From the NCBI GenBank assembly GCA_903833055.1, contig CAILDU010000201.1, forward strand, positions 1 to 38,459: a DNA stretch of 38,459 bases. The letters are read 5' to 3'. Below, piece after piece: positions 3,301 to 37,835 of this stretch. The first letter of the stretch is position 1. Each line of letters begins with the position of its first letter. The notes under the pieces are model-generated. The model worked only from the letters and a program-made list of their open reading frames with translations. It made no database searches and had not been told where the DNA came from. This DNA is from an uncultured Verrucomicrobia subdivision 3 bacterium. Its GTDB lineage: Bacteria > Verrucomicrobiota > Verrucomicrobiia > Limisphaerales > UBA11358. The position numbers and the translations under genes are program-made.

Positions 3301-5270
3301 TTACAAATAGCTATTCTTACGACGCATTGAATCATTTGACGAACATGGTGGATTCCATCGGCGCAACACATTTTGCCTATGATGCCGTCGGCCAGTTATT
3401 GAACTCGGGCGGTTTGTGGGCTAATGATCCGGTGAGTTGCATCTACACCAATCGTTTAAGAGTTGGTTTGGGTGTAGGTTCAGCTTGGAGTCAAATTTAC
3501 AGTTACGATCTGGCGCGTCGGATTATTTCATTGAGTTCCCCGGCGGGTGCTTTTGGATATAACTACAATGTCGCCCCAGCATCTGCCTTGGTTTCTGCTA
3601 TCAATCTGCCTAACGGCGCTACCATAACCAATGGCTACGATGACGCGGCACGTCTTACACAGTCAACATTAAACAATCATTGGGGACACGTCTTGGACGG
3701 CTATGGTTACGAATACGATTTGCTTGGCGAGCGAACCAACATATTGAAAAACATCGGATTGACAGGTTCGACCATTACGGCGGGATACGACTCTATCGGC
3801 GAGTTGACCTCATGGATGGCAAAAGAAATGAATGGTGCGCCACGTTTGAACGAACAGCTAGGCTGGTCTTATGATGCAGCGGGCAATTTGCAGTCACGAA
3901 CAAATGGCGGCTTGGTTCAGATTTTCCAGACGGATGCGTTGAATGAGCTTACAAATGTAACACGCATTGGCGTGCTAACGGTAAGCGGAAACACGCCCGC
4001 GCCAGCCACGAATGTAACTGTGAACGGACAGGTTGCACAGATTTACAGTGACTTCACATTTGCCAGCACCAATCATACGCTTGCGAATGGCAATAACGTC
4101 TTCACAAATATAGCGCAAAATATTTATGGCATGACTGTGACCAATACAATCACTTCCTATCTGCCAACGCCTGTCGCCCTCGCTTATGATGCCAATGGAA
4201 ATCTAACGAATGATGGCCTGAAATCATTCAACTATGATGCCGAAAACCAACTAACAAATGTAGCCGTAGCCGGACAATGGAAATTATCCATCGTGTATGA
4301 TGGATTAAATCGGCGAAGAATTGTGAAAAATTATAGTTGGAGCGGCAGCGTGTGGGTCAAGACTAATGAGGTGCGCTACATTTATGATGGCAATTTGGTC
4401 ATTCAGGAACGTGACACTAATAATAATTCATTGGTGACTTATACTCGTGGGCTCGACTTGAGTCATTCACTGCGTGGTGCTGGCGGGGTCGGCAGTTTGT
4501 TGGCAAGGACAGATGGAATTGGTTCAACTTATTATCACGCTGACGGTAATGGTAATATAACTGGACTTATTGACGGAAATGAAAATGTGGTTGCGCGATA
4601 CGGTTATAGCCCATTTGGCAAGCTTCTTGGTCAATGGGGTTCAATGGCAAACGCCAATGAAATGCGGTTCTCAAGCAAAGAGTGGGATTCAAATTCAGGA
4701 TTGTATTACTACCTTTACCGTTTCTATGACCCCAATGTGCAACGCTGGATAAATAGAGATCCAATTGCGGAACGAGGGGGAATAAATCTCTATGAATTTG
4801 TATTAAACAACCCGGTTTATGTTTTCGACGTTTATGGTTTGGCGTGGTCTAACGATCCCGGCGGGTGTCCTACTGGAACACATCCAGATAAAAATAGTTC
4901 CGATTGTTTTGATCTTGGAATGGGACGCGCATGTCCTTGTGTCCCAGATAACCCTCCGCCCCCGCCCCCGCCACAAAATAATCCGCCGCAGAACGATCCG
5001 ACGGCATGTTCAAGTTCTCCAACATTGCCACCTACGCCAGCACCGCCATCGCCACCGGCTCCGCCAGTTGCGCCAGCACCTACTCCAGCACCGCCATCGC
5101 CGCCCTACAACCCGCCTTATAATCCAATTTATAATTCGCCTAATCCGCCTCCAAGAAGGCCAGCACCACCGTATCAACAAGGCCCATTCCCTTATCCTTG
5201 GCCTTATGGCCCTATTATTAAAACCGGGCCATGGGTTTCAAGCCCAACTGGTCCAATGTATGGCTACTAA
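393..5270 (+). CDS. Exported Rhs/YD-repeat protein with proline-rich C-terminal tail
   Basis: The 1,625-residue protein starts with a signal peptide (MTTIKNLLCLLVIGLCSATAYA). A proline-, cysteine- and glycine-rich stretch follows (about residues 24-70), then a long run of YD repeats of the type YTYTTNEQPASITQPSG or YDALNHLTNMVD through most of the length. The RHS-associated core is at about residues 1380-1485: YHADGNGNITGLID, YSPFGKLLG, GLYYYLYRFYDPNVQRWINRDPI, NLYEFVLNNPV. In the Rhs family this core closes a beta-barrel shell and is followed by a variable, often toxic, C-terminus. Here the last ~140 residues are a Cys-containing segment followed by a tract dominated by Pro, Ala, Ser and Tyr, with no toxin domain I recognise. 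The small membrane protein downstream may be a partner. The region looks more AT-rich than the enzyme genes further on. Family assignment is secure; role is unknown. Confidence 0.9.
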   Translation: MTTIKNLLCLLVIGLCSATAYAGFPVNFPTPPPPCPYCPCPPGFGGSGGSSGSGGSGCPTCGNVWNVGGATGGMPDWKVNEPNIDLRLHDEPLAYQSSVSRMSFQIDYWQRDDREIATNVFTTGLGWECSWKSYVIPDGDAATLYGAGGGEMVFPDLLDPSPSYYYNLQMQALTDTNGNLSGYAVFYSSGAEDVYGFLATDTSGNVNQAYLSQKIDAHGHTTTFIYAPYNSTNGVVQLNYVIDPDGKTNTLSYTTNGSYNCLISQVQDPYGHTVSFSYDTDGYLTNVTDVAGLSSSFGYANVAVGTDWVGYVTDHWLDQLTTPYGTTSFTFTDEGLELDWYDLFYEIYYGYVSSIVRSVVITEPNGSHQMFAYDGYASFAPSNVDWSHVPSSTPDGSLLDDGAYMIYRNSFYWGRQQFANLTGTFLATGATNWDLTQLTPTDFLKGRWQHWLHSSGGGQSDALSMEQDPSPDGINPGEMTWFTYPGQPANYDSNGKLVSYYQGTSDLPTLTIKVLPDGSQWYEQYQMDQWGNRTEINSTYSSGGSVLTRTNSYVYSADGTDLLEIIGPDGITNAAYGYDSQHQVLFLTNALSEVTSYTYTTNEQPASITQPSGLVTTYTYGADNFLTQQIAVGYFTNSYTYANGLIYTYTDARGLTVTDSWDALQRLTNISYPDSTSVAYTYNKLDLEKIVDRMGFTTSYGYNAIRQKIAETNALSNVTSYSYCDCGALEFVTDPLGHVTHFTHDNQGNQVGVVYPDGYSVTNQYNLLRQLTQRTDSSGAILNYIYNNQGLPTTISNAVGLVGDYAFDIDDRITNNLDINGVSVGMTYDNLGRLLTRRYPDGGVENYGYTQNVYGTTSFTNQIGSVKLFGYDAMNRKTSEAYAGTTTNYFDYSGGSDLLALTNGKGQATIWHYDSYGRMTNKVDALNHSIFNYAYDADNRLTSRWTPENGNTFFTYDATGNPIQIGCAQFTNSYSYDALNHLTNMVDSIGATHFAYDAVGQLLNSGGLWANDPVSCIYTNRLRVGLGVGSAWSQIYSYDLARRIISLSSPAGAFGYNYNVAPASALVSAINLPNGATITNGYDDAARLTQSTLNNHWGHVLDGYGYEYDLLGERTNILKNIGLTGSTITAGYDSIGELTSWMAKEMNGAPRLNEQLGWSYDAAGNLQSRTNGGLVQIFQTDALNELTNVTRIGVLTVSGNTPAPATNVTVNGQVAQIYSDFTFASTNHTLANGNNVFTNIAQNIYGMTVTNTITSYLPTPVALAYDANGNLTNDGLKSFNYDAENQLTNVAVAGQWKLSIVYDGLNRRRIVKNYSWSGSVWVKTNEVRYIYDGNLVIQERDTNNNSLVTYTRGLDLSHSLRGAGGVGSLLARTDGIGSTYYHADGNGNITGLIDGNENVVARYGYSPFGKLLGQWGSMANANEMRFSSKEWDSNSGLYYYLYRFYDPNVQRWINRDPIAERGGINLYEFVLNNPVYVFDVYGLAWSNDPGGCPTGTHPDKNSSDCFDLGMGRACPCVPDNPPPPPPPQNNPPQNDPTACSSSPTLPPTPAPPSPPAPPVAPAPTPAPPSPPYNPPYNPIYNSPNPPPRRPAPPYQQGPFPYPWPYGPIIKTGPWVSSPTGPMYGY

Positions 5271-5900: not shown

Positions 5901-6140
5901 TCACGGCATATTTTGATTCTGACACAAATTTTGATCAATCTCCGGGTCGAGCATGGATTTCAACATATCCTGTAGTTCTGAATCCATAAATTCAAAATCA
6001 TCAGGAATATCTAGAACCTCAATACGCGGCAGTTCCAATCCAGAAAACCGTGATTCGATCCAGGTTTTGTGCGGCCTTTCCATCACAAATACTACGTCTT
6101 TGCGACATAGCTCGTAGTGATGCCTAACAATAATTCGCCC
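5901..6140 (-). pseudogene. Remnant of a low-molecular-weight protein tyrosine phosphatase-like protein (N-terminus lost)
   Basis: Reading the minus strand from about 6140 to the TGA at 5901 gives a sequence that matches the C-terminal two-thirds of the ~105-residue low-molecular-weight protein tyrosine phosphatase family. It contains CRKDVVFVMERPHKTWI, then LDIPDDFEFMDSELQDML, which correspond to the family's ADxIFVMExxH and LDIPDDYEFMDPELxxLL blocks. The frame is closed by a TAA at 6165-6167. No CxxxxxR phosphate-binding loop, which carries the catalytic cysteine in this family, is present upstream in any minus-strand frame I read. The fragment therefore cannot be an active phosphatase. A GTG at 6084 could start a 61-residue product, but this would begin in mid-domain. 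It is best read as a decayed gene. Confidence 0.7.
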
Positions 6141-6294
6141 GCCGTTTTTGTGGTCGGTCAGGTTTTAAATTTTGCAACTATGCTAGACGTAAATCGCCTC
6201 TGTCCAGCGCATTCATGCAGGCGCGCTGTCATTACTTCATTTTCTCCGGCGTGTGGTGGAAATTTAATTTGATGCCGCAGTTGCCGCGCGCGCG

Positions 6295-6343
6295 CCCGCC
6301 AACGCAAAATACTGATTGAATGGCTGATTTGCGTTTGGGCGGG
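6295..6343. terminator. Imperfect hairpin followed by a T-rich run
   Basis: The arm at 6295-6308 (CCCGCCAACGCAAA) pairs with 6328-6343 (TTTGCGTTTGGGCGGG), with a two-base bulge and a 19-base loop. On the plus strand it is followed by TTCGTTTTT. It could be a plus-strand terminator, or a folded leader just before the ATACGAC element and the GH43 remnant. The loop is longer than usual. Confidence 0.4.
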
Positions 6344-6352
6344 TTCGTTTTT

Positions 6353-6373
6353 AATACGACATTTGACTGATTG
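6353..6373. promoter_or_regulatory. ATACGAC element upstream of the GH43 remnant
   Basis: AATACGACATTTGACTGATT matches the element upstream of the response regulator gene (37042-37061) at 19 of 20 positions. It shares the core ATACGACATTT with a palindrome in the GH115/adhesin divergent region. It lies 25 bases upstream of the ATG at 6398. The internal TTGACT could be a -35 box, but no clear -10 is seen. It is inferred to be a regulator binding site. Confidence 0.5.
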
Positions 6374-6397
6374 CTGCGCCAGCGGCTTTTCCCAATA

Positions 6398-6945
6398 ATG
6401 AAGGCACTTATGCCAATGCTCGTTTTCACCAAGCTACGCCCAGTTGTGGTTTTATGCGCCGCCATTTTACTAAGCGGTTGCCATTCGCATTCGCCGGTGG
6501 CTGCGGCTGGATTGCCCGCAGAGAAAATGATTGCGACGCAAAGCGTGCCAACGGCAACGGCGAAGCGCCACGCGATCTCGTCATCCTCGACCAGCAAGGC
6601 CAACCACTCAAAGCCGGCGATCACGACCGCCGTTTCTTCGAAGCGTCATGGATGCATAAACACAACGGAAAGTATTATTTCTCCTACTCAACTGGTGACA
6701 CGCACCTCCTGTGCTACGCCACGAGCGACACGCTTTACGGTCCCTATACCTATCAAGGCGTCATCCTCACGCCGGTGGTCGGCTGGACCACGCACCACTC
6801 CATCTGCGAGTTTAAGGGCAAGTGGTATCTGTTCTACCATGACTCCAAACCCTCCGGCGGCCGCACGTGGCTGCGTAGCCTGAAAGTGGTCGAACTCGAA
6901 TATCTCCCCGACGGCTCCATCAAGACCATCACCGGCCAACCTTGA
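6398..6945 (+). pseudogene. Broken GH43 glycoside hydrolase: lipoprotein signal peptide and C-terminal part in different frames
   Basis: From ATG 6398 the frame encodes a lipoprotein signal peptide (MKALMPMLVFTKLRPVVVLCAAILLSGC, lipobox LSGC). This frame then runs into nonsense-like sequence. From about 6560 the +1 register frame carries the C-terminal part of a GH43 beta-propeller hydrolase: RRFFEASWMHKHNGKYYFSYS, then GVILTPVVGWTTHHSICEFKGKWYLFYHD, then LRSLKVVELEYLPDGSI, to the stop at 6943-6945. The FEASW glutamate corresponds to the family's general acid. The N-terminal blades with the catalytic base and the pKa-modulating aspartate are missing, roughly 150 or more residues against a usual ~320. 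Both a deletion and a frame change are therefore needed. GH43 members are beta-xylosidases or arabinofuranosidases, which fits the neighbouring xylan genes. Confidence 0.75.
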
Positions 6946-6959
6946 AGGTAAAAATTTAT

Positions 6960-10838: not shown

Positions 10839-13835
10839 TCAGTTGTGAAAACTTTCCGGCGGGCCGAGATAACTCGGTTTCACGCCGCCAGTGTTAACAA
10901 CAATTTTTTCCACGACGACGGCGGGGTCAATCATCCAGATTTTCAACGTGTGATAGCCGGCGGTGGCAAGCGTGTGCGTGGAGGTGATGTGACGGCAGTT
11001 ATTTTTAACCGACTCGGCCCAATCGTGATTATTGTTCGCCCCCGCCGTGTAATCCGCAGGAACAAGCGTCACGACTTGCGGTGTTTCATCATCAAAGGAA
11101 ACCGCGTAACGCAGTGCGCGACCATGAATAAAATTCAGTGTCGCGCCGACGGTGGATTCGACTTCGACTATGCCTGGATTGAACAAATACATTTTGTATT
11201 CGAGGCTGGGCGAATCTTTTCTTGGTGTCGCCTGCTCGTCGACGGGCGCGTCCGCGCGCATGGCGGAAAGCGTGTGGCCGTAATTCGTAATTTTTATCCA
11301 GCGGTTCGCGCCCGCAGCCAAATTTTTGGTGAAATGTTCCGCTTCGATGGCAACGCAGCCGTCGCTTTCCACAAATCCTTGCAGCGATTCGCGCGTTGGT
11401 TCGGGTGGATTGAACACGGTGAAATTCACCGTCACGTCACTGCCCGCGCCGGAAATTTTCACTGCGCCGCTGCTTGTGCCGCTGGGTGCTTGGCTCCAAT
11501 CCACAAAAATCCACAGCCGCAGGTCCTTTTTAATTTGGGCGCTCAGGCTATTTCCATCCATCCCGTCAGGAAAAGGATTACCGATATGAATCCACGGCTG
11601 GCTGGTGCTGGCGGAAAATTCAAACGGTATTTTTCCCTTATTGAAAATGTCAACGTAGCGGCGCTGCTGATTCAACGAATCAAACGGCGGCAGGAAAATT
11701 TCTCCGTTCGTTGCCGCGGTTTCCGAACCCTCAACTGCTACGCCCATCGTTGCTGCTTTCGGGATGCTAATTTTCGCCAGATGAATTGCGTCTAAATTAT
11801 TTCGCTTAGGCTCGTTCCAATTCGTGTAGCCGATATAGGGTTGATCCATAAAATGCTTCCATTTGCCGCCAGCAAATTGGTTGTTGAAGTAACTCATCAA
11901 GCGGGTTTGCGCGGTGAACAGTGCGCGGGTTTGTGCGGCAAAATCATTCGCGCTGGCGCGGCCTTGCTGCGCATACAAATTGTTTTTCGCGGCGGCGAGA
12001 TAGAGCGCGTTTAATCCCGCGCTCGCCTTGGTCGGGAATAAAACGAGTTCGTAAAATGCGTCGCGGCTTGCTGACGGTAATTGTTCATAAACTTTTTCGG
12101 CGCGGTCGGCGAGCGCTTCATAATCAGCGACGACTTTTTCAAACTCGCCGTAATTGACGAGGCTGTAAGTTTCCGCCTCTAGCAACTCGGGTTTGCGGCG
12201 GCCATTAAATTTCGTGTAGGTTGAAATGATGCTGGCAATTTCGTCGGCGTGCGTGGGGCCGAATTCGCGCTCGGCCCAGAGCTGTGTGAACTCTTCCAAA
12301 TTTTCATTTGTCCAACGCGACGTGTCCCACGCCAGACTCATGAAAAATTCCAGAGGAAATTCGCAACCCTTCAAATGGCCGACGTTCACAATCCAAATCC
12401 GATCCGCGCCATATTGTTTGGCGAGCGACATTTGATCCCAAATTTTCGGAATCGGGCTGGTGTTGAGCCACTGGTAATTGCGTGGGCTGCCGTGGTAATC
12501 GAAGTGATAGTAAACGCCCGCGCCACCGCTGCGTTGGCGTTCCTCGGCACTCGGCAGGCGACGGACGTTGCCCCAATTATCTTCTGCCCACAGCAACGTC
12601 ACGTCGTCTGGCGCGCGCATGCCGGCGTTGTAAAAATCCATCACCTCTTTGTAAAGACACCAGAGCTGCGGCACTTTCGTCACGTCGGGATTCACTTCAT
12701 CGGCGATTATTTTTCGTTGCACGCCGACGATTTTTTCCAGCAGTTCCATGTTGGCTTCCGGACCGCCCTCGGCCATCGGCGTATCATTCGCGCCGCGTAA
12801 ACCGATGGTGATGATGTTTTCGTAATTTTTATTGCGCGCGATACCTTCATGCCAAAAGTTGGAGACGATTTCCGGATGCTGGGCGTAATTCCAACTGCCA
12901 ATGGTTTTTTGATAACGGCGGTCCCATTCCTTTTGCGCCCGCAACATGGGTTCCTGATGTGAATTGCCCATCACGATACCGTATTCATCTGCGAGCGCGG
13001 GATTGTTCGTGTCATCTTCGTTAAAAGCGTTATTCCACATCGCCGGCCACAAATAGTTGGCGCGAATGCGCAACAGCAGTTCAAAAAGATTCGTGTAAAA
13101 ACCCCGTCCGTAATTGGCGACGTTGGGGTGGCCGGGAACTGTGCCGAATTTTTCTTTGACCCAGCCGGTCAAATCCGGCGCTTCGTCGTTCAAAAAAATG
13201 CCGCGATATTTTACCGATGGCGGGCCTTGAACGAATTTTCCAGCGCGCACAAAAAGTTGGTCGTGATGTGGCGGCGGCACATCCGCCCAATAATGCCAAG
13301 GCGAAACACCGATTTGTTCCGACAAATCGTAAATGCCGTAAATCGTGCCGCGCTTGTCGCTGCCGCAGATGACGAGCGCATTTTCAATTCCCGGAAACGG
13401 CTGCGGCACGACTTGGAGAAAAAACGATTCCCATTTGCCAGCGATTTCCAAGGCATTAATTTTCTTTTCGCGAATCAGTTGGTCGATGAATTTGCTTTTC
13501 CCAATTGTGCCGATGATGACAACGTTTTTGCCGGTAGACTTTGTTTCGTTAAAAACTTGAGACCGGTGATGGGTGACGCGATGGAGGTCAGTCACCAGAT
13601 CATCCGCCGCGCGCACCACTCCTGGCCAATCATTTGTGTCGATGAGAATCGTTGCGGCTTGGCCGTCACATAAAGCAAAGCTGTTTGGGGTGAAGCGAGT
13701 CGCGACGTAATTCGTTTCACCGAGTGCGAAGATGTTTTGCGAGGAAAGGACGATAAAAACGAACAGCACACCCAGTTTGCCGGGTCGCAAATAAGCGGCG
13801 GAATTGAGCTGATTTAGCATTTTGGAATAAGACAT
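10839..13835 (-). CDS. GH115 xylan alpha-1,2-glucuronidase, exported
   Basis: The 998-residue protein has a hydrophobic export signal at about residues 18-38 (KLGVLFVFIVLSSQNIFALGE). It then follows the GH115 layout: an N-terminal domain with VVIIGTIGKS and GSDKRGTIYGIYDLSEQIGVSPWHYWADVPP, and a catalytic barrel with KYRGIFLNDEAPDLTGW, ANYLWPAMWNNAFNEDD, GNSHQEPMLRAQKEW, LLWAEDNWGNVRRLP and FDYHGSPRNYQWLN. A C-terminal jelly-roll segment contains VAIEAEHFTKN. The family removes (4-O-methyl)glucuronic acid from internal and terminal xylose residues, unlike GH67. The start at 13835 is followed by an alternative ATG at 13820; neither has a clear ribosome site. It is transcribed divergently from the adhesin-like gene across a region with two palindromes, and leads into uxuA. 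Confidence 0.94.
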   Translation of the reverse strand: MSYSKMLNQLNSAAYLRPGKLGVLFVFIVLSSQNIFALGETNYVATRFTPNSFALCDGQAATILIDTNDWPGVVRAADDLVTDLHRVTHHRSQVFNETKSTGKNVVIIGTIGKSKFIDQLIREKKINALEIAGKWESFFLQVVPQPFPGIENALVICGSDKRGTIYGIYDLSEQIGVSPWHYWADVPPPHHDQLFVRAGKFVQGPPSVKYRGIFLNDEAPDLTGWVKEKFGTVPGHPNVANYGRGFYTNLFELLLRIRANYLWPAMWNNAFNEDDTNNPALADEYGIVMGNSHQEPMLRAQKEWDRRYQKTIGSWNYAQHPEIVSNFWHEGIARNKNYENIITIGLRGANDTPMAEGGPEANMELLEKIVGVQRKIIADEVNPDVTKVPQLWCLYKEVMDFYNAGMRAPDDVTLLWAEDNWGNVRRLPSAEERQRSGGAGVYYHFDYHGSPRNYQWLNTSPIPKIWDQMSLAKQYGADRIWIVNVGHLKGCEFPLEFFMSLAWDTSRWTNENLEEFTQLWAEREFGPTHADEIASIISTYTKFNGRRKPELLEAETYSLVNYGEFEKVVADYEALADRAEKVYEQLPSASRDAFYELVLFPTKASAGLNALYLAAAKNNLYAQQGRASANDFAAQTRALFTAQTRLMSYFNNQFAGGKWKHFMDQPYIGYTNWNEPKRNNLDAIHLAKISIPKAATMGVAVEGSETAATNGEIFLPPFDSLNQQRRYVDIFNKGKIPFEFSASTSQPWIHIGNPFPDGMDGNSLSAQIKKDLRLWIFVDWSQAPSGTSSGAVKISGAGSDVTVNFTVFNPPEPTRESLQGFVESDGCVAIEAEHFTKNLAAGANRWIKITNYGHTLSAMRADAPVDEQATPRKDSPSLEYKMYLFNPGIVEVESTVGATLNFIHGRALRYAVSFDDETPQVVTLVPADYTAGANNNHDWAESVKNNCRHITSTHTLATAGYHTLKIWMIDPAVVVEKIVVNTGGVKPSYLGPPESFHN

Positions 13836-13860
13836 TCTCGGTCATGACCAAGGACTTGAC

Positions 13861-13880
13861 CATACGACATTTATCGTATG
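13861..13880. promoter_or_regulatory. Palindromic operator candidate 1 (CATACGA-N6-TCGTATG)
   Basis: This is a perfect 7-base inverted repeat around CATTTA, 25 bases upstream of the GH115 start and 151 bases upstream of the adhesin start. Its left half, ATACGACATTT, is identical to the element before the GH43 remnant. TTGACC immediately to the left (13856-13861) could be a -35 box for rightward transcription, though no good -10 was found. Confidence 0.6.
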
Positions 13881-13926
13881 CAGAGAAGAATGGACGGTTT
13901 TGGTCGGTCGCGCTGGATGGGATAAA

Positions 13927-13944
13927 ATACGACGAATGTCGTAT
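13927..13944. promoter_or_regulatory. Palindromic operator candidate 2 (ATACGAC-N4-GTCGTAT)
   Basis: This is a perfect 7-base inverted repeat around GAAT. Its reverse complement reads ATACGACATTCGTCGTAT, so it shares ATACGACATT with candidate 1 and with the element at 6353. It sits about 65 bases from candidate 1, centre to centre, roughly six helical turns, which would suit a pair of dimers or looping. Confidence 0.6.
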
Positions 13945-14020
13945 AGTATTTGGAGCTGGCTTCAAGCAGAGTATGACGAAATCCATTTTTACCCAGAGCG
14001 CCTTTTTATCATTTCGCCAA

Positions 14021-14030
14021 CCCCCCCCCC
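14021..14030 (+). repeat. C10 homopolymer tract just before the adhesin start codon
   Basis: Ten consecutive cytosines end one base before ATG 14032. The tract replaces any Shine-Dalgarno sequence for that start. Such tracts are prone to length change and are the classical basis of phase variation in surface-protein genes. The length could also be a sequencing artefact. Confidence 0.7.
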
Positions 14031-14031
14031 A

Positions 14032-17000
14032 ATGAAAACCACAGCCACCAATAGAATGAAAACCAAACAATCCATGAAAATTGGAAATTTAATCACCAAA
14101 TTGATTGTCTGCATCAGCCTTTTCTCCGCGAGCGCGGCGATGGCTGTTAGCACCTATTTGTGGACCGGTGGTGCTGGCACCACCAACTTGCTGACCGGAG
14201 CCAACTGGAGCCCAGCACCCAGCTCTTTCAACAACGCGGGTGATATTTTTATTTTCACTAATAATGTCACGAGCTATGGAACATTGGCTGTGATTAGTGG
14301 TGGGAATTGGGGGCCAGCGAGCAGTTCTACCACACCGGGTGGTGCGGTGGTGTATTATGAAGGAACCAACAATTTAACCATCCAAGCGCCGGACAATTCG
14401 TCGCGCTGGAACATGGGCAATCTTTCGATTTCCAACGGTGCGGGTATTTTCACCATGGGTGCTGCTTCGGGTATAACGGTTTGCGGCTTTCGCGAGAGCG
14501 CGATGACATTTCTGAATAACTCCACCAATCCAGCGACAATCAAATCCACATGTAATTTCTTCAACGGTGGTGGTATTGGCAATCGCAATATCACCTTCAG
14601 TGGAACAGGTGACTGGGTGGCAGAAGGAGCCATTATCAGCTCGGCGGCCTCACCTAACGGCTTTGGTGGGTCTGAAGCAACCGCCTCCATTACCAAAAAC
14701 GGCAGCGGTAAGCTGTCGCTCAACGGGCTGAACAATATGGGTAGTAATCCGATTCAAAATAATTCCGCCGTAATTCTTAATGCCGGCACACTTTCTTTGG
14801 GCAATGCTAATGCGATGGGATCAGGAACCGGCGCTTTGACCATCACCGGAGGTAGTTTGGATAGTTCAGTAGCGAATCTGGTTATTGCTAATAATAATCC
14901 GGAAAACTGGAATGGAGATTTCACATTTATTGGCACGCAGAATTTAAATATTGGTTCCGGTGCAGTGACGTTGAATGCCAACCGCATTGTAACAATCAGT
15001 GCAAACACTTTGGAGGTAGATGGTGTAGTTGGTGGTGCTTTCAGTCTTACCAAGTCTGGTGCGGGAACATTATATTTGAATCATGCCAACGCCTATTCCG
15101 GCGGCACGACCATCAGTAACGGCATAGTTAAATTGGGCGTGAGTGGTGCGCTTACCAATGCTGGCAATGTGACAGTCTATGGCACGTTGGATCTCAATGG
15201 TAACAGTGTCACGAGTCTCAACTTGAGCGGAACTGGAATCGTGGACACGGTTTCTGGTGGCACGCCGACCTTGACCGTGAGCAATACTAGTAGCACGACT
15301 TTCTCTGGTGTGATTAAAAATACCAGCGGCACTTTGGCGTTGACCAAAGGTGGCAGCAGCACGCTGACATTGGCTGGCGCGAATACTTACACCGGCAACA
15401 CGGCAGTCAATGCGGGCACGTTGTTGGTCAATGGCAGCATTGGGGCGGGCGCAGTGACCGTCGCCAGCGGTGCGACGCTCGGCGGCACGAATACGATTGG
15501 CGGAAATGTGAACTGGCAATCTGGTTCAGCGGCGTTATTCACCGTGACTCCGACCACGGCGAGTGGTTCCAATGCGACACCGCTGATTGTTTCCGGCAAT
15601 GTGACGTTGAACGCAAATACGATGACAGTGAATGTTCCCGGAGCGACTCCGCTGGCGGCTGGCACTTATAAGTTGATGACCTATAATACCAGTGGCAGCA
15701 GCGGCGCCTTTAGTGTTGGCGCACCGACTTTCACCGGCGCCGGTGTTGGTTCAGGAACGGCTTCTAGCATTTCTACTAGCGGTGGAGCGGTGACACTTAC
15801 GGTGGTCTTTACCGGTCTGAGTGCTACTTGGACGAATAATGGTAGTGGTAACTGGTCAACGGTAACAGATTGGAGCAGCAATCCGAGTTATCCTCATGTC
15901 GCCGGTGATTCAGCGACGTTGGGTGTTGGTTCTGCTTACACCACGGCCACGGTTGATACGGCAGTATCCTTGGCGGCGCTGGCCTTCACCAATGCCAACT
16001 CATTCCTCGTGGCGGATTCTGGTAATGCATTGACCTTTACCAATCCGTTTGGCGGCGCACTTATCAACGTAACGGCAGGTTCCTCCAACGCCATTGCCGC
16101 CGCCGTCATTTTGGGCACCAACTTGACAACGTCCGTCGCCTCCGGAACTTCGCTGACGTTTACCAACATCATCAGCAATAGCGGGGGAGCTAAAACATTG
16201 ACTGTGAGTGGTGCGGGCACAACCGTGCTGTCTGCTACCAATACCTATGGCCCGTCGGCTGGCGGCGTAGGCACAACTTTTGGCGGTGGCATCTTGAAAC
16301 TGGGCAACAACAATTCCTTGGGTGCGGGTGACGTAAGCATGTCGGGCAGTGGCACGATTCAGGCGGGCGCGGCGCTGACATTGTCCAACAACATTATTGA
16401 TGGCTCTGGCACAACCACGCTGGATAATAACGGCAACAATGTGACATTGGCTGGCGTGATTAGTGGTGCCGGTGCTTTTGCGAAAAGCAGCGCGGGCACG
16501 TTGAGTTTGAATAGTTCTAACAGTTATGCCGGCGACACGACCCTTAACGCCGGAACCGTTGTTCTGAACAATGCCTACGGAATTCCCGGCGGCACGAATT
16601 ATGGCAACGTAACTCTTAATTCAAATGCCGTCCTCAATTTGAATGGCAATAACGTGGTGCTCAATGGTCTGGGTTCATCCACCAATACCGCAATCGTTGA
16701 TACGCTTTCAGGTGGTTCTGTGACCCTCACGGTTGGTGAAAGTGGGGCGAGCGCCACCTTCTTGGGCAGCATTTCTAATTCGTCCGGCAGTTTGACTTTA
16801 GTGAAGGATGGCAACGGCGTAGAGACGCTCGCTGGCGTCAATGGTTATACTGGTGGCACCACGATTAACGCCGGAACTTTGCAGCTCGGCAACGGTGGAA
16901 TCAGTGGCAACTTAGGTTCTGGCGCGTTGTTGGACAATGGCCTGTTGGGATTCAATTTGACCGGAGCCAAAATCTTTACTAACGACATCAATGGTAGTGG

Positions 17001-20000
17001 TGGTGTGCTTTTGAACAATGCCAGCCTCTCGCTTTGGCTGACTGGTAATAATGGCTTCACCGGTGGAATCACCAATTTTGGCGGGGCGCTTTGGGTTTCC
17101 AATTCCGCGACTGGATTGGGTGTCGGGCCGAAGACGGTTCTGTGTGCCAGTCCTAACGCCACGATTCATTTGGATGGCAGTCTGGGCGGCTTGAGTTTGG
17201 ATAGTTCCATTGCTCTCTACTTGAGCGGCAGTGCCGGTGTCTTGTTTAACGAAGCGGGGAACAACACGGTTTCCGGAATCGTCGGAATGGTGAATGGCAA
17301 TGGCAATCCGTATATCGTCGTGAACAGTGGCACGCTCACACTTGCCGGTGGAGTTAGCACGGTTGCTGGCAACAACCCTCGCACCTTGGTGTTGGGTGGT
17401 GTGGGCAACGGACTTATTTCTGGAAAAGTTACTGAAGCGGCTCCGGGCAGTCCGCAAGCATCCCTCACCAAACAAGATGCCGGAACTTGGACTTTGAGTT
17501 ACGCCGGTAATGACTACAGCGGAGTAACGACCGTTAGTGGTGGCACACTCATTATTGATGCTGCCGGATCCTATTCGGGTAGCGGAGCCATAGTGGTTAC
17601 CAACAGTGGAACTTTAAATTTCAACGGGACGGATAATGGTAACGGCGTCATCACAGTTAATAACGGTGGAATCCTGAATTTCAACGGGACGGATAGCGGC
17701 AACGGAACCATCACGGTCAATAGCGGTGGAACGTTGAACTTCAATGGGAATGATTATGGAACAGGTGGGGTGACGGTCGCTACGAATGGTATTTGTGGTG
17801 GTGTGGGCACAATCTTCTCAACGCCATCAGGCCCGACATTGGCATACCAATTGGGAGCGAAAGGTGCGTTCACCACTTCTGCCGGCGGTTCAACCCCGTT
17901 GACAGTTTATGGCAACGTCACATTGAACAACAACTCACTTACGGTGTTTGTCGATGGCGGCACACCTTTGTCTCCCGGCACATACACCTTGTTGAGCGAA
18001 GGTAATCCCGGAACTTACAGCATCAGCGGCGCCTTCTCGAGCGCGGCGACCATCGCTGGCGCAGGCATTGTGTCTGGGTCAAGAGCGGCCGTTGTCAGCA
18101 GCAGCTCGCAAGTATCGCTGGTCGTGTCACTCAATAGCACTTGGACCAACAATGCGAATGGCAACTGGACTACCGGAGCTAACTGGGACAGTAATCCCAC
18201 CTATCCGAACGCTGCCGCGCAAGTGGCTACGCTGGGAGTTGGTTCCAGCCTGATTACGGTCAACTTGGATGCCAGCGAGACGGTTGGCGGGGTTGCTTTC
18301 ACCAACGCTAATTCCTTTGCCGTCACCAACGCGGCTAATGTTCTGACCTTGGACAATAATGGCAACGGTGCGAGCATCAGCGTGGCAGCCGGCACGGCCA
18401 ATTCAATTGCCACCGGAGTTTCCTTAAATGATGCCACGGCAGTCAGCACGGTGGCTGGCACGGCACTCGCAATTTCCGGCAGTATCAACGGCGGCTCCGC
18501 TTTGACTGCGACGGGCAATGGCGTGTTGACGTTATCGGGAGCAAATAGTTATAGCGGCACGACCACGCTGGGCGGCGGGACACTGGTGCTGGGTAGCACG
18601 ACTGCCATCGGCTCCGGCACACTCACGATTAGCGGCGGCACATTAGATAGCTCCGTAGCGAATCTGGTCAATGCGAATAACAACGCGCAAAACTGGAACG
18701 GAAGTTTTGGCTTCGCCGGATCGCAGAGCCTGAACCTCGGCAGCGGGGCGGTGACACTGGGGAACAATCTCACAGTCACGGTCAATACCAACAAGTTGAT
18801 TGTGGGCGGGGCCATTAGTGGTGCCTATACGCTAACATTGGGTGGAACCAACAACGGCACACTTGAACTAGATGCCGCCAATGGATTCACGGGCTTGACG
18901 ATTGTGTCCGGAACCGTGGCCTTGGGCGACGACAACGCGCTTGGCACGGCCACGCAGATTCAATTATCACCGGCAGCCATCACACCAGCGGCGACCAACC
19001 TGACTATCATGTCAAAAGATTCCACAGCGCATACGATTACCAATGGATTCAGTGCTAATGGTTTTGACGGCCCTTACATCCTCGGTGGAGCGGGCAATCT
19101 AAACTTCAGCGGAACGATTGCCACAGGCAATGGCCAGAAGCGGTTTACGGTGAACAATACCACGACTTTCAGCGGCTTTGTCACGGACAATGGCGCTCCC
19201 AGTGGTCCGATTATTAAAGACGGTTCCGGCACGCTGGTGATTAGCGGCAGCAACACGTTGACGAAGCAATTCACACTCAATGCCGGCACGCTGGCCTTGG
19301 GCAGCACGAATGCGATAGGTTCAGGCGCCTTGACTATCAGTGGCGGTGGCTTGGATAGCACCGTAGCCAACTTGACCAATGCCAATAACAACGCGCAAAC
19401 CTGGGGCGGCAACTTCTACTTTGCTGGTTCCCAGAATTTGAATCTGGGCACAGGCAGCGTCACCATGAGCGCCAACCGGACCATCACAGTCAGCAATAAT
19501 ACGTTTACGGTAGGAGGTGCCATTAGCGGCGCGGGCGCGCTGACCAAGGCTGGCGCTGGCAAATTGGTTCTCGCGGGTGCGAATACATTAACCAATAACA
19601 CAACGGTTAGCGCGGGCACATTGGAAATTGTCCAAGCGACGCTGGCAACTAACTCAACGGTCTCCATCAGTAACAGTGCCGTGTTGAAATTGGACTTCGC
19701 GGTGACGAACAAAGTTGGCGCACTGGTTCTGAATGGCGTCACCCAGTCCGGCGGCGTTTATGGCAGTAGCACGCCGGGCGGCTACATCACCGGCACTGGC
19801 TATTTGCAAGTGGCGCAGACGGGTCCATCTGGACCGGCGAGCATTACGAGCAGCGTCACCGGCGGCGGTTCGACCTTGAGCCTCGCGTGGCCGTCAGGTC
19901 AGGGCTGGCGACTCCAGATGCAGACGAATAGTCTTGCGACCGGCCTCGGCACGAACTGGATTTATATTACGGATGGAAGTTTGAGCAGCACCAACATCAC

Positions 20001-20049
20001 GATTGATGCGAACAAACCCACCGTGTTCTATCGTTTGACTTATCCGTGA
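14032..20049 (+). CDS. Giant secreted adhesin-like protein with autotransporter-associated beta-strand repeats
   Basis: This encodes about 2,005 residues from ATG 14032. ATGs at 14056 and 14074 are alternatives, and the last directly precedes the signal peptide [24 protein letters not shown]. The body is a long beta-solenoid of autotransporter-associated beta-strand repeats of the type [20 protein letters not shown] followed by [11 protein letters not shown]. At least nine are visible, for example [53 protein letters not shown] and [18 protein letters not shown] ~115-residue module (…[18 protein letters not shown]…) occurs three times. A WTNN-GNW segment occurs twice. The last ~70 residues ([11 protein letters not shown] … VFYRLTYP) form a separate small domain. 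No outer-membrane autotransporter barrel is present. Likely surface-exposed or released; xylan binding is inferred only from the neighbours. Confidence 0.85.
14790..15138 (+). repeat. Intragenic ~115-codon module, copy 1 of 3
   Basis: This copy encodes [20 protein letters not shown] and on to [12 protein letters not shown]. Related copies lie at about 18585-18927 and 19290-19629. They share [12 protein letters not shown]-x-x-NW and GSGAVTL blocks. The boundaries are approximate. Confidence 0.7.
17602..17778 (+). repeat. Three tandem 57/60-bp repeats inside the adhesin-like gene
   Basis: Consecutive units encode [39 protein letters not shown] and [20 protein letters not shown]. They are the clearest recent tandem duplication in the gene and a likely site of copy-number change. 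Confidence 0.85.
18585..18927 (+). repeat. Intragenic ~115-codon module, copy 2 of 3
   Basis: This copy encodes [20 protein letters not shown] and on, related to copies at about 14790 and 19290. It differs from copy 3 mainly in the second half. The boundaries are approximate. Confidence 0.7.
19290..19629 (+). repeat. Intragenic ~115-codon module, copy 3 of 3
   Basis: This copy encodes [20 protein letters not shown] and on to [11 protein letters not shown]. It is closest to copy 2 in its first half (SSVANL/STVANL, NANNNAQ, GSQ-LNLG). The boundaries are approximate. Confidence 0.7.
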
Positions 20050-20097: not shown

Positions 20098-20140
20098 TCA
20101 ATTTAGATTACTGACTGTTAACTACGCCGTGAAAATTAAA

Positions 20141-20941
20141 ATGAAATTATTTAAAACGAAGTCCGCTTCCGGATTCACCTTGATTGAATTGTTGGTGGTC
20201 ATCGCCATCATCGCAATTCTGGCGGCCATGCTGTTGCCCGCACTTGCCTCCGCCAAAGAGAAGGCCAAGCGCATCGCATGTGTGAGCAATTTGAAGCAGA
20301 TAGGACTGGGAGCCACCATGTATGCCGGGGATTACAATGATTTGGTTCCGCCCGCAAACACGAATGGAACCAGCACAAGCATTTTTGTGGTGAACGCAAT
20401 TAAGACCAATGTGGTTGATGCTGTGAATTCCTACCTGAAAATCCAACCCAATAGCCCTTCGGTTTGGGTTTGTCCCGATCGTTCATCTACTCCATCTCCC
20501 GGACTTCCATATCAAGTTAATGATCAATGGCTCATCGGTTACTGCTATTTTGGAGGAATGAAAACTTGGACAGCCTCGCCGACTGGCACATCTTACAGTC
20601 CAGTAAAACTAGCTGCCGCAAAACCTTTCTGGGCCTTGGGAGCCGATAACAATATGAAAAATGTGGCGGGAAATCAGTGGGCTGGCCAGTATGCGGCGGC
20701 GAACATTCCGGCATATTTATGGGAATATGGCAGTATTCCGCCGCATCCTGTAAAAGGTGGTGACCCCGCTGGCGGCAATGAAGTGTTTGCCGATGGTTCG
20801 GCAACTTGGTGCCAATTTGCCAATATGTATCGGTTCAATTCCTACATCACTGCGCTTGGCGTTACTTTAGATTCCTATTGGTATCAGGACACGCAGGATT
20901 TTGATGCCGCCTTTCAAGCCCGGTTGTCAACTTTGAAGTGA
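20141..20941 (+). CDS. Type II secretion/type IV pilin-like pseudopilin (prepilin-type N-terminus)
   Basis: This encodes 266 residues from ATG 20141; GTG 20129 would add four. The leader [11 protein letters not shown] is followed by [32 protein letters not shown], the prepilin peptidase site (cleavage after Gly, methylated Phe, Glu5) and hydrophobic helix. The C-terminal part contains [22 protein letters not shown], a version of the His…Asp-Gly motif found in the large pseudopilin group of Verrucomicrobiota and Planctomycetota (DUF1559-like). These genomes usually encode many such proteins, often beside secreted proteins, and their exact roles are unclear. It lies between the adhesin-like gene and the GH30 gene, so a role in presenting or exporting surface xylan-binding proteins is possible but unproven. 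Confidence 0.88.
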
Positions 20942-33871: not shown

Positions 33872-36800
33872 ATGCGAAATGATTCACACCGATCCGACCG
33901 CAGGGATTTTTTTAGAATCTGGTTCGTGTGGTGGTGGCTGCTGGCGGTTGCGGTCGGGTCGGCTTCGGCGCAGAACTTACCCGCGATTACTAATCTGCAG
34001 CAGTTGACGCAAACCTTGAATTCTCATCCGCGGGGCTATGGCGATGTGCATCTGGAAATGACGGTTTGTGCCGCGAGCCGGCCGAAAGTTGGCGTGCTGA
34101 TCGTGCAGGATAAAACGGGAACGGAATTGTTGGAACTGGGTAATTTCGGACGAGCGATTCTGCCCGGCGAACGCATCAGCATTCAAGGCTGGTATGATTT
34201 TTTCCGCAAACGGGAAATGGGCATTGAAATTACCAAGTCACCGCTGGTGGACAATGATGGCATCCACTTTCCGCGAACATGGACGGCCAACGCCACGCTC
34301 AAGGCTGGGATGGCGCCGCTGCGGCTGGACTGGTTTCACGGCTTGCGCGATTTCAATCTGGAGGTTTATTGCTACGCGTCGAACGGGCCGCCGGTAAATC
34401 TCATGGCGTCAAATTTTTGGCATGCGGTCGTGGATGAAACGTCCGGCCAGACGAATTTTTTGCCCGGTTTACATGCCGAAGGTTACGAAGGCTATTGGGA
34501 GGCCGTGCCGGATTTTGAATTGCTGCAACCAGTTAAAATCGGGCTGGTAACAAACTTTGACGTTGGCTTCAGAACGCGCGATGAGCGAGTGGGCATCCGT
34601 TACGCCGGCTACTGGAACGTGCCGCAGGACGGGCAATATAATTTTCGGGTGCGCTCGGATGATGGGAGCTTGCTGTTTCTCGATAAGCTGGAAATGCGGG
34701 TCACCCACGTCGGCACGACCACGATTCCGATTCCCCGTCCTGGTCTCTATGGTGAAACGATGCGCAGTCTGGCCGACCGGCGGTGGATGACGCTGGAAGG
34801 TCGGGTTGGTTTCGTCACAAAAAAAGGTGAGGGGATTGAATTTGATTTGCACTCAGACCGGGATGTAATTCCCGTTCGAGTCGCGGATGCCGCTGGCCTT
34901 GACCCATCGCGTTTGCAGAATGCGCGCGTCAAAGTTGTCGGCGTTGGCCGAGCGGTGCTGACGGCGGATCAACGGTTGGTGCTGGGGAAATTATTTATGG
35001 CCAGCGCCAAGGAAATTCAGTTGGTCGAGGAAGCGCCCGGCAGCAAATCCTCATTGCCGCTCACGACGGTGAGGCAGGTGCAAGGCTTGCAGATTGAAGA
35101 TGCGCGGCGTGCGTTGCCGGTGCGACTTTGCGGAGTGATTACGGATGCCAAGAATTCTGTGTTTGATCGCTGGGTATCATTTCAAGACGACACGCGCGGA
35201 ATTTTTGTGAGCCTGACTTTGGTTTCCAACACACTGCCGGCCTTTGGCGAATTTTGGGAAGTGCAAGGCCACAGCGGAGCCGGTGATTTTGCGCCGGTCG
35301 TAATTGCCGATAAGATGACTCTTTTAGGCGCTGGCCGATTGCCCGAGCCGGTGCGCCCGACGTGGACCGAACTGCTGAATGGCAGCAAAGATGTTCAATG
35401 GGCGGAACTGCAAGGATTGGTCACCGATGTGCAAAGTAACCGCGTCACGCTGCTCCTGCCCGAAGGTCGGCTGGAAGTTCAAATGGATGGTTATGACCAA
35501 GCGGAGCTAAAGCCGTTCCAAAAAAATGTCGCCCGAATTCGCGGTGTGCTCTACGCCGTTTGGAATGCGAACAACCGCGAAGTGCGCGTTGGCAGTGTGC
35601 GGATGCGCAACGCCACCATCAGCGTGGATATGCCCGCGCTGGCGGATCCGTTTGCCGCCGTGGAAAAAACGCCGCGTGACCTTTTGCTGTTCGACGCGCA
35701 AGCCACGCCATTTCGTTGTGTGAAAGTGCGCGGACAAATTATCTACGCCGATGCGACGCAGCTTTTTTTGCAGCAAGACGGAGCCGGACTCCGGCTGTTG
35801 CCCGCCGACAAAACCGACGTATGTGCAGGCGATTTGGTGGAAGCCGCTGGTTATCCTGACATTGGCCGACCAGCTTTGTTGTTGCGGGAAGTTTTAGTGC
35901 GTAAAACGGGCGCGGCCGCATTGCCACCCGCACGCAAACTGGCGGAATCCGAATTGGCGCGGGAAAATCTGGATTCAACGCGGGTGCAGGTGAGCGGAAA
36001 ACTGCTGGGCTGGCATTTGGAGCAAGGCGCGCTGGTTTTGGAAATGCAATCCGGCACCCATTTGTATCTGGCGCGGCTGTCACCTGAAGAATCATCGCAA
36101 CTTTCGTTGCGCGTTGGCAGCCGTCTGGCGCTGGCGGGCGTGTATGTGGCGCAGGGTCGCAACCTGCAATCCGGCATGGAAGCCGAATCGTTTGAACTAT
36201 TGTTGAATTCAGCTGCGGACATTGTCGTGCTTTCGCAACCTTCCTGGTGGACGCTGCAGCGAATGCTGATTCTCGTTGGTATGTTGCTGGCGGTTTTGAT
36301 TTTTACCGCCGCCTGGATTACGCAATTGCGACGACAGGTTGAAATGCGCACCGCGCAGCTCCAGCGTGAAACCCGTGAGCGCGAGCGCATCGAGCGCCGC
36401 CATGCGCTGGAATCCGAGCGTTCGCGCATCGCCCGCGATTTGCACGACGACCTCGGTTCCAGCCTCACCGAAATCAGCGTGCTCGCCAGCACCGGCCAAC
36501 GCCCGACTAGCGCGGAAGGCAGTCACGCCAATTTGTTCCAGTCCATCGCTGGTAAGGCGCGCAACCTCATCGCGGCATTGGATGTCATCGTGTGGGCGGT
36601 TGATCCCGAGGATAATTCACTCCAATCACTCGCCGATTATTTGTGCGGCTACGCCGATGAATTTTTTTCCAATACCAACCTCTCGTGCCGTTTCAAGGTG
36701 CCTGTCGTTTTCCCGCAAATTACTTTGGAAGGGCGCGTGCGGCATGATTTGCATATGGCCGTGAAGGAAGCGCTCAATAACATTGTGCGCCACGCGGAAG

Positions 36801-37042
36801 CGACCGAGGTGGAATTTAAGATGGCGGTTGCCGATGGAATGCTGGAGATTGAAATTGCCGATAATGGCAAAGGCTTTGCCGGCGCGCCGGAAAAAGATGG
36901 TCACGGTTTAAAAAATTTACCCACGCGACTTAAGGGTATTGGCGGCGATTGCACCATTGAATCGCGTCTCGGTGGTGGCACTACGGTGAAAATATCTTTG
37001 CCGGTGCCGAAGGCGGGCGGAGCCAAAGCCGAACCGAATTGA
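33872..37042 (+). CDS. NarX/LuxR-type sensor histidine kinase with PA14-containing periplasmic region
   Basis: The 1,056-residue membrane kinase has an N-terminal hydrophobic segment (about 16-34, IWFVWWWLLAVAVGSASA). A very large extracytoplasmic region follows: OB-like beta domains (about 50-130 and several between 340 and 790) and a PA14 domain (about 195-330; VGIRYAGYWNVPQDGQYNFRVRSDDGSLLFLD). There is one transmembrane helix at about 798-818 (MLILVGMLLAVLIFTAAWI), then a coiled linker. The HisKA_3 helix RSRIARDLHDDLGSSLTEI has phosphoacceptor His858, and the HATPase has EALNNIVRHAEA (N box) and IADNGKGFAG (G1). PA14 domains often bind carbohydrate, so sensing xylan fragments is a fair inference. 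Its TGA overlaps the ATACGAC element. Its partner regulator follows. Confidence 0.9.
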   Translation: MRNDSHRSDRRDFFRIWFVWWWLLAVAVGSASAQNLPAITNLQQLTQTLNSHPRGYGDVHLEMTVCAASRPKVGVLIVQDKTGTELLELGNFGRAILPGERISIQGWYDFFRKREMGIEITKSPLVDNDGIHFPRTWTANATLKAGMAPLRLDWFHGLRDFNLEVYCYASNGPPVNLMASNFWHAVVDETSGQTNFLPGLHAEGYEGYWEAVPDFELLQPVKIGLVTNFDVGFRTRDERVGIRYAGYWNVPQDGQYNFRVRSDDGSLLFLDKLEMRVTHVGTTTIPIPRPGLYGETMRSLADRRWMTLEGRVGFVTKKGEGIEFDLHSDRDVIPVRVADAAGLDPSRLQNARVKVVGVGRAVLTADQRLVLGKLFMASAKEIQLVEEAPGSKSSLPLTTVRQVQGLQIEDARRALPVRLCGVITDAKNSVFDRWVSFQDDTRGIFVSLTLVSNTLPAFGEFWEVQGHSGAGDFAPVVIADKMTLLGAGRLPEPVRPTWTELLNGSKDVQWAELQGLVTDVQSNRVTLLLPEGRLEVQMDGYDQAELKPFQKNVARIRGVLYAVWNANNREVRVGSVRMRNATISVDMPALADPFAAVEKTPRDLLLFDAQATPFRCVKVRGQIIYADATQLFLQQDGAGLRLLPADKTDVCAGDLVEAAGYPDIGRPALLLREVLVRKTGAAALPPARKLAESELARENLDSTRVQVSGKLLGWHLEQGALVLEMQSGTHLYLARLSPEESSQLSLRVGSRLALAGVYVAQGRNLQSGMEAESFELLLNSAADIVVLSQPSWWTLQRMLILVGMLLAVLIFTAAWITQLRRQVEMRTAQLQRETRERERIERRHALESERSRIARDLHDDLGSSLTEISVLASTGQRPTSAEGSHANLFQSIAGKARNLIAALDVIVWAVDPEDNSLQSLADYLCGYADEFFSNTNLSCRFKVPVVFPQITLEGRVRHDLHMAVKEALNNIVRHAEATEVEFKMAVADGMLEIEIADNGKGFAGAPEKDGHGLKNLPTRLKGIGGDCTIESRLGGGTTVKISLPVPKAGGAKAEPN

Positions 37043-37061
37043 ATACGACGTTTGACTGATT
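37042..37061. promoter_or_regulatory. ATACGAC element upstream of the response regulator gene
   Basis: AATACGACGTTTGACTGATT differs at one base from the element at 6353, though flanking bases show no similarity. It overlaps the kinase stop codon and lies 70-89 bases before the regulator ATG. Its position would allow autoregulation or a separate promoter for the regulator. Confidence 0.5.
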
Positions 37062-37130
37062 TTATATTTACCGCCGTGATTTAGAATTGTCATCAAACCA
37101 CATTGCATTTCGCAATTTGAGAGAGATGGC

Positions 37131-37835
37131 ATGACGGCACAACTAGCACCAAGCATTGAACTGATGACGAAGGTCGCCATAGTCGAAGACAACGCCACGT
37201 TGCGCAAATATCTGGCGGAGATGGTAGGCAATACGCCCGGCCACCGTTGCGTTTGCACCTGTGCGTCGGCGGAGGAAGCGGTCGTGGAAATCCCCCTGCA
37301 CAAGCCGAACGTCGTGCTCATGGATATTCATTTGCCAGGCGAATCCGGTATTGCCTGCACTGCGCGTCTGCGGGAAAAGATGCCGGATTTGCAGGTCATC
37401 ATGTTGACCGTTTACAAGGACATCAAAATGATTTTTCAGGCACTCAAGGCGGGCGCTTGTGGCTATGTGCTAAAACGTTCCGACGAAAAGGAAATTCTTG
37501 ATGCCATCGCCGAAGTTCGTTCCGGTGGTGCGCCGATGACCAGCGAAATCGCCCGCATGGTGGTGCGCTCGTTCATGGAGGCGCCCAAAACGTCGGATCC
37601 AAATGACACGGATCAATTATCAAGCCGCGAGCTGGAAATCCTCGCGCTGGTGGCCGAGGGTTGCCCGAACAAGGAGATTGCCACCCGCCTTTTCATCAGC
37701 AACAGCACGGTGCGGACGCACTTGATGCACATTTACGAAAAACTTCACGTTCGCTGTCGCACCGAGGCCGCAGCAAAATACCTTCGTTCTAAACCGCCCA
37801 GCTTGCCGTCGCGTCCAGATGCTCGCGCAAACTAA
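37131..37835 (+). CDS. NarL/FixJ-family response regulator
   Basis: The 234-residue protein starts at ATG 37131, preceded by a purine-rich GAGAGAGATGG that serves as the ribosome site. ATG 37164 is a second in-frame option right at the receiver domain. The receiver domain has VAIVEDNATLRKYL, LMDIHLPGESGI with phosphoacceptor Asp65, and VIMLTVYKD and GYVLKRSD with the conserved Thr and Lys. The C-terminal LuxR-type helix-turn-helix is LSSRELEILALVAEGCPNKEIATRLFISNSTVRTHLMHIYEKL. It follows the sensor kinase by 88 bases and is presumably its partner, acting as transcriptional regulator of the adjacent xylan genes. The ATACGAC elements are candidate binding sites. Confidence 0.93.
   Translation: MTAQLAPSIELMTKVAIVEDNATLRKYLAEMVGNTPGHRCVCTCASAEEAVVEIPLHKPNVVLMDIHLPGESGIACTARLREKMPDLQVIMLTVYKDIKMIFQALKAGACGYVLKRSDEKEILDAIAEVRSGGAPMTSEIARMVVRSFMEAPKTSDPNDTDQLSSRELEILALVAEGCPNKEIATRLFISNSTVRTHLMHIYEKLHVRCRTEAAAKYLRSKPPSLPSRPDARAN

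Follow-up and report, generated by a model that had tools for sequence, protein, structure and literature searches.

Two perfect palindromes that lie between a GH115 alpha-glucuronidase gene and a giant repeat-protein gene in the window (here, the whole 38,459-nucleotide stretch of DNA analysed) are very probably operators of the locus's own NarL-type response regulator (RR; 37131-37835). Judged by sequence comparison, this regulator would activate both divergent transcripts and would also regulate its own gene. The genes of this xylan-type locus run in the order MFS_2, GH10, UxuA-like, GH115, giant PATR / TIGR02601 repeat protein and pseudopilin-like protein, followed later by CBM96, GDSL, GH2, GH51, SASA esterase and GH39 genes and then by a histidine kinase (HK) and a LuxR/NarL-type RR. 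The features that carry the argument are:

10839..13835 (start probably 13820), minus strand, GH115 alpha-glucuronidase gene (PF15979, 8.6e-149)
14032..20049, plus strand, giant PATR / TIGR02601 beta-strand-repeat protein of 2005 aa; an adhesin role is only putative
20129..20941, plus strand, pseudopilin-like protein (N_methyl, DUF1559), a type that often adjoins PATR genes in relatives
33872..37042, plus strand, histidine kinase with a large extracytoplasmic sensor and a HisKA_3 core
37131..37835, plus strand, NarL/FixJ-type RR, a predicted DNA-binding protein with recognition helix TVRTHLMH
13861..13880, minus strand, predicted operator 1, CATACGACATTTATCGTATG; toward GH115 it reads ATACGATAAATGTCGTAT, and the identical sequence stands at the GH115-side site of genomes G013, G026 and G024
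13927..13944, plus strand, predicted operator 2, ATACGACGAATGTCGTAT in the direction of the PATR gene; the perfect consensus also occurs in G010, G026 and G079

Both elements, CATACGA-CATTTA-TCGTATG (13861-13880) and ATACGAC-GAAT-GTCGTAT (13927-13944), are perfect inverted repeats with identical arms in the register ATACGA-N6-TCGTAT; compared with ATACGAC-N4-GTCGTAT, the first has one base changed. Their centres, at 13870.5 and 13935.5, are 65 bp apart. The original prediction had described a perfect pair with one half-site and centres about 65 bases apart, and this was exactly what was found. Its setting between divergent genes for xylan side-chain removal and a giant surface protein agrees with the gap between the minus-strand GH115 gene (start 13835 or, more probably, 13820) and the plus-strand PATR-repeat gene (start about 14032), but the name adhesin goes further than the protein itself, which shows PATR / TIGR02601 beta-strand repeats only. 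Just before the start codon of the PATR gene (14032), where a ribosome site would be expected, stands a run of ten C residues (14021-14030), which may be a slippage tract or an assembly artefact. Near the contig edge, at 393-5270, the window also encodes an RHS-repeat protein that is apparently unrelated to the xylan genes.

A lone palindrome of this size is unremarkable, since the window holds five perfect 7-bp-arm palindromes of the 7-4-7 type and five of the 7-6-7 type; for a second copy with the same arms in the 196-bp divergent gap, the chance expectation is about 9e-6. Perfect inverted repeats could also make short stems, and single palindromes are common by chance, but the idea that these are RNA hairpins, terminators or chance repeats is scarcely credible: a T run is absent after the stems, the sites lie upstream of predicted promoters, and conservation and clustering, described below, are far above controls. 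A literature match of the same heptamers to miRNA stem-loop primers was set aside as coincidence.

It had been proposed to scan the genome with an ATACGAC palindrome matrix and to see whether hits concentrate upstream of xylan genes. The source genome (2.75 Mb scanned, 86% complete) contains perfect ATACGAN6TCGTAT only at 13861-13880 and 13927-13944, with one further site at one mismatch and no control matches, and in relatives the sites cluster in one xylan locus per genome. Within the family the pattern is present in 7/49 genomes. Each of the seven has all its copies on a single contig, and the control gave no match in any of them. All seven encode an RR ortholog of at least 79% identity next to an HK ortholog, and the sites fall within this HK/RR locus except in G013, where HK and RR are on a separate short contig. 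Across the order, the 14-base palindrome occurs in 13 of 320 genomes versus three for the control pattern, and 12 of the 13 are at xylan-type loci; the match in G279 is within coding sequence and was treated as chance. The order-level genomes G079, G081, G083, G124 and G261 belong to other families. Outside the order the palindrome was found in 1/386 genomes against 2/388 for the control, which is background; the single perfect ATACGACN4GTCGTAT there (G563:C44:68968, L246) is likewise at background rate.

Genes directly downstream of the sites encode GH115, GH8, GH62-esterase, GH95, GH3, GH43, GH51, malectin proteins and PATR giants. The divergent GH115/PATR gap with at least two sites is found again in G026, G079, G081 and G124, three other families of the order included, the giant gene in these four being identified from its size and position. 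At G009:C33, a PATR-repeat giant with fn3 and a glucuronoyl esterase domain (L038, 1510-6288; PF22244, 2.8e-57) is transcribed divergently from the kinase gene, and a single operator separates the two; this is a minimal form of the system.

Two weaker sites were found in the window:

37043..37060, plus strand, degenerate operator ATACGACGTTTGACTGAT between the kinase and RR genes, predicted to serve autoregulation; 19 RR promoters have a counterpart
6354..6371, plus strand, degenerate operator ATACGACATTTGACTGAT; a truncated GH43-type unit and the MFS/GH10 genes follow it

The first begins at the base that follows the kinase stop codon, ahead of the RR gene, and the two have 17 of 18 bases in common. 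A third weaker site, on contig C205, falls within a related copy of the region around 6354. In the window this region, 6118-6947, is a deletion remnant: C205 has the longer form, with two stretches separated by about 1.1 kb that match 6118-6564 at 90% and 6558-6947 at 83% identity. In the remnant, the beginning of a lipoprotein gene is joined to the final part of a GH43-like gene.

The RR consists of a receiver domain (PF00072, 2e-24) followed by a GerE (LuxR-type) HTH (PF00196, 4.9e-19), the domain order of a NarL/FixJ-type RR. The adjoining kinase carries PF07730 (HisKA_3) and PF02518 (HATPase), as a cognate kinase of such an RR should, and the HK/RR pairing is kept at most RR loci of relatives. 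The kinase is predicted to combine a signal sequence with an extracytoplasmic part of about 750 residues, mostly beta in the model, a long transmembrane helix and a DesK-like kinase core (mean pLDDT 74); the extracytoplasmic part gives a weak PA14 match. When the kinase alignment was used to search named genomes, most matches were generic kinases, and the best named ones came from Verrucomicrobia subdivision 3 / Limisphaerales.

Which protein reads the palindromes is indicated by the way in which the half-site follows the recognition helix. RRs with helix TVRTHLMH (or TVRTHLTH) go with ATACGAC, and ATATGAC accompanies seven RRs whose helix is TVRIHLSH or TVRIHLGH. At the RR's own promoter, the half-site of TVRIHL(S/G)H proteins is (A/G)TATGA(C/T) in 7/7, and that of the 12 TVRTHL(M/T)H proteins with a site is ATACGA(C/T) in 11 and ATAGGAC in one. 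An own-promoter site was not seen for four C-type RRs (TVRTHLMH helix), those of G020, G014, G081 C68 and G165, which form a separate sub-clade. Perfect ATATGAC-N4-GTCATAT occurs in 5/7 genomes with a TVRIHL-class RR and in no others (hypergeometric 1.1e-5), and one mixed site occurs in G017, a genome without a close RR. G043 and G038 have both systems, each on its own contig and accompanied by its matching motif. The two switched residues align ungapped with V189 and K192 of NarL (numbered as the 215-residue chain plus one), which presumably touch DNA bases. As the TVRIHL RRs are a single clade in the RR tree (support 95/81), the co-variation reflects one evolutionary specificity switch and not many independent cases; within that one switch, the operator co-occurs and co-varies with the RR as the regulon of one transcription factor would. 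G032 may hold a third class, with a TVRSHLLH RR and ATCAGCC-type palindromes at G032:C11 57028 and 57958 (L105), near the RR and upstream of a giant gene.

The same data bear on whether another transcription factor, such as a sugar sensor of LacI, GntR or AraC type whose gene lies elsewhere, binds the sites while the kinase and RR are co-regulated passengers. Sugar-responsive repressors often bind perfect palindromes of similar size. RR orthologs were also detected in G124, G081, G079 and G165; none was detected in two genomes with sites, G083 and G261, perhaps through genome incompleteness. We nevertheless consider such a factor quite unlikely: the half-site tracks the RR helix even in the two-system genomes, the loci repeatedly contain the RR and no unrelated regulator was seen to recur in them, and C-type RRs are present in all seven family genomes with the perfect site, which is found in none of the 37 family genomes that lack one (hypergeometric 9e-6). 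Control by the RR remains the preferred reading. That one regulator serves both transcripts, as first suggested, is supported by the clustering at xylan genes, the recurrent GH115/PATR pair and the co-variation of half-site and helix; the window's response regulator, then named as the suspect, gains support from sites that adjoin RR orthologs and change with their recognition helix.

The position of the sites points to activation. At 19 of the 26 unambiguous sites, a TANNNT hexamer begins 21-23 nt past the 18-bp site when read toward the gene. Unambiguous sites are those with a gene on one side only, a choice that avoids the hand-assigned orientation used for sites between divergent genes. The reverse direction gives two, and locally shifted positions gave a mean of 0.44 and a maximum of 4 in 2000 trials. 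All 19 RR promoters with a site have TANNNT at 21-22 nt. If TANNNT is taken as the -10 element, the operator centre falls at about -42.5 to -43.5, the position of a class II activator, so that the sequences at 19/26 sites have an operator near -42 at a fixed -10 distance. NarL activates the Escherichia coli ogt promoter from -44.5 and -77.5 (PMC7419079). The hexamers predicted in the window are:

13834..13839, minus strand, GAGAAT, predicted -10 of GH115, 22 nt past operator 1; a weak consensus match
13967..13972, plus strand, CAGAGT, predicted -10 of the PATR gene, 22 nt past operator 2; weak
37082..37087, plus strand, TAGAAT, predicted -10 of the RR gene, 21 nt past the operator

Because the predicted GH115 hexamer and the first ATG of this ORF (13835) overlap, translation is more likely to start at 13820. 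TTGACT within ATACGACRTTTGACTGAT was ruled out as an ordinary -35 because its spacing to the -10 does not fit. Given the fixed offset, each palindrome appears to serve its own promoter, the one at 13862 GH115 and the one at 13927 the PATR gene. The two had been called paired, and their placement under one regulator is supported; instead of a single paired operator, there appear to be two sites, one for each promoter at about -43.

An unlikely alternative is that the RR binds but represses, or that both sites cooperate through a loop. The 65 bp separation is about six helical turns, and paired-site spacings in relatives fit helical phasing weakly (p about 0.04, seven pairs). Yet those spacings range from 51 to 117 bp, the 21-23 nt distance to the hexamer is fixed at single sites too, and the operator lies upstream of the -10, at the position of an activator, and not over it, all of which argue against this alternative.

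For such an activator, we infer RR binding, phosphorylation, activation and a xylan signal as follows. The membrane kinase (33872-37042) would sense a xylan-derived signal through its extracytoplasmic sensor and phosphorylate the RR; that its ligand may be a xylan breakdown product is suggested by gene content only. An RR dimer on each operator, centred near -43 from the transcript start, would bring RNA polymerase to a promoter that lacks a good -35. In this reading, operator 1 would activate GH115 and operator 2 the oppositely oriented giant PATR-repeat gene, perhaps along with the pseudopilin and downstream enzymes, while the 37043 site would give feedback on the RR gene and the 6354 site would act on the duplicated GH43/MFS unit.

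Among known systems, NarX/NarL is close in kind. The NarL operator is a heptamer pair, and the window RR matches NarL structures 1je8 and 8u3b ungapped, but it scores 130.6 bits against the NCBIfam NarL equivalog cut-off of 250 bits and is thus a NarL/FixJ family member, not NarL. Both systems combine a HisKA_3 kinase with a NarL-type RR (REC and GerE), and NarL activates from about -44 at ogt (PMC7419079); unlike it, the window system has the operator ATACGAC-N4-GTCGTAT, targets xylan enzymes and a giant repeat protein, and has a kinase which, unlike NarX, carries a large extracytoplasmic sensor. The hybrid two-component systems (HTCS) of Bacteroides polysaccharide utilisation loci unite kinase and RR in one protein, and their HTH is of the AraC type; in the window these are two separate proteins, and the HTH is of the GerE type. 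In HTCS loci a sensor kinase controls polysaccharide utilisation genes (PMC11253607), a feature that the predicted window system shares. No Pfam match to a SusC/SusD pair was obtained among the window proteins scanned, and the locus is accordingly not of the HTCS / SusCD kind. The 18-bp tra box and 20-bp lux box are palindromes read by a dimer of GerE domains of LuxR-type proteins and so resemble the present case in joining a palindrome to a GerE-domain regulator; they differ in sequence, and the window RR has a receiver domain in place of an autoinducer-binding domain.

A literature search found no published description of a verrucomicrobial xylan regulon. The present analysis provides a predicted motif, cognate regulator and promoter architecture for glycan-degradation loci of largely uncultured, probably verrucomicrobial polymer degraders, and the motif may allow xylan regulons to be predicted from sequence. 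More tentatively, and at somewhat less than even probability, the order may possess paralogous xylan two-component systems whose regulons are kept apart by two helix residues (T/M with ATACGAC, I/S with ATATGAC and perhaps S/L with ATCAGCC), with enzymes and a giant PATR-repeat/pseudopilin module, maybe a substrate-contact or enzyme-display device, as common core output. The natural two-residue switch between paralogous RRs, both of which are present in some genomes, would offer a test of DNA reading by NarL-type proteins and of the insulation of duplicated pathways, and the regulon would link xylan use with the giant PATR proteins, so far unexplained.
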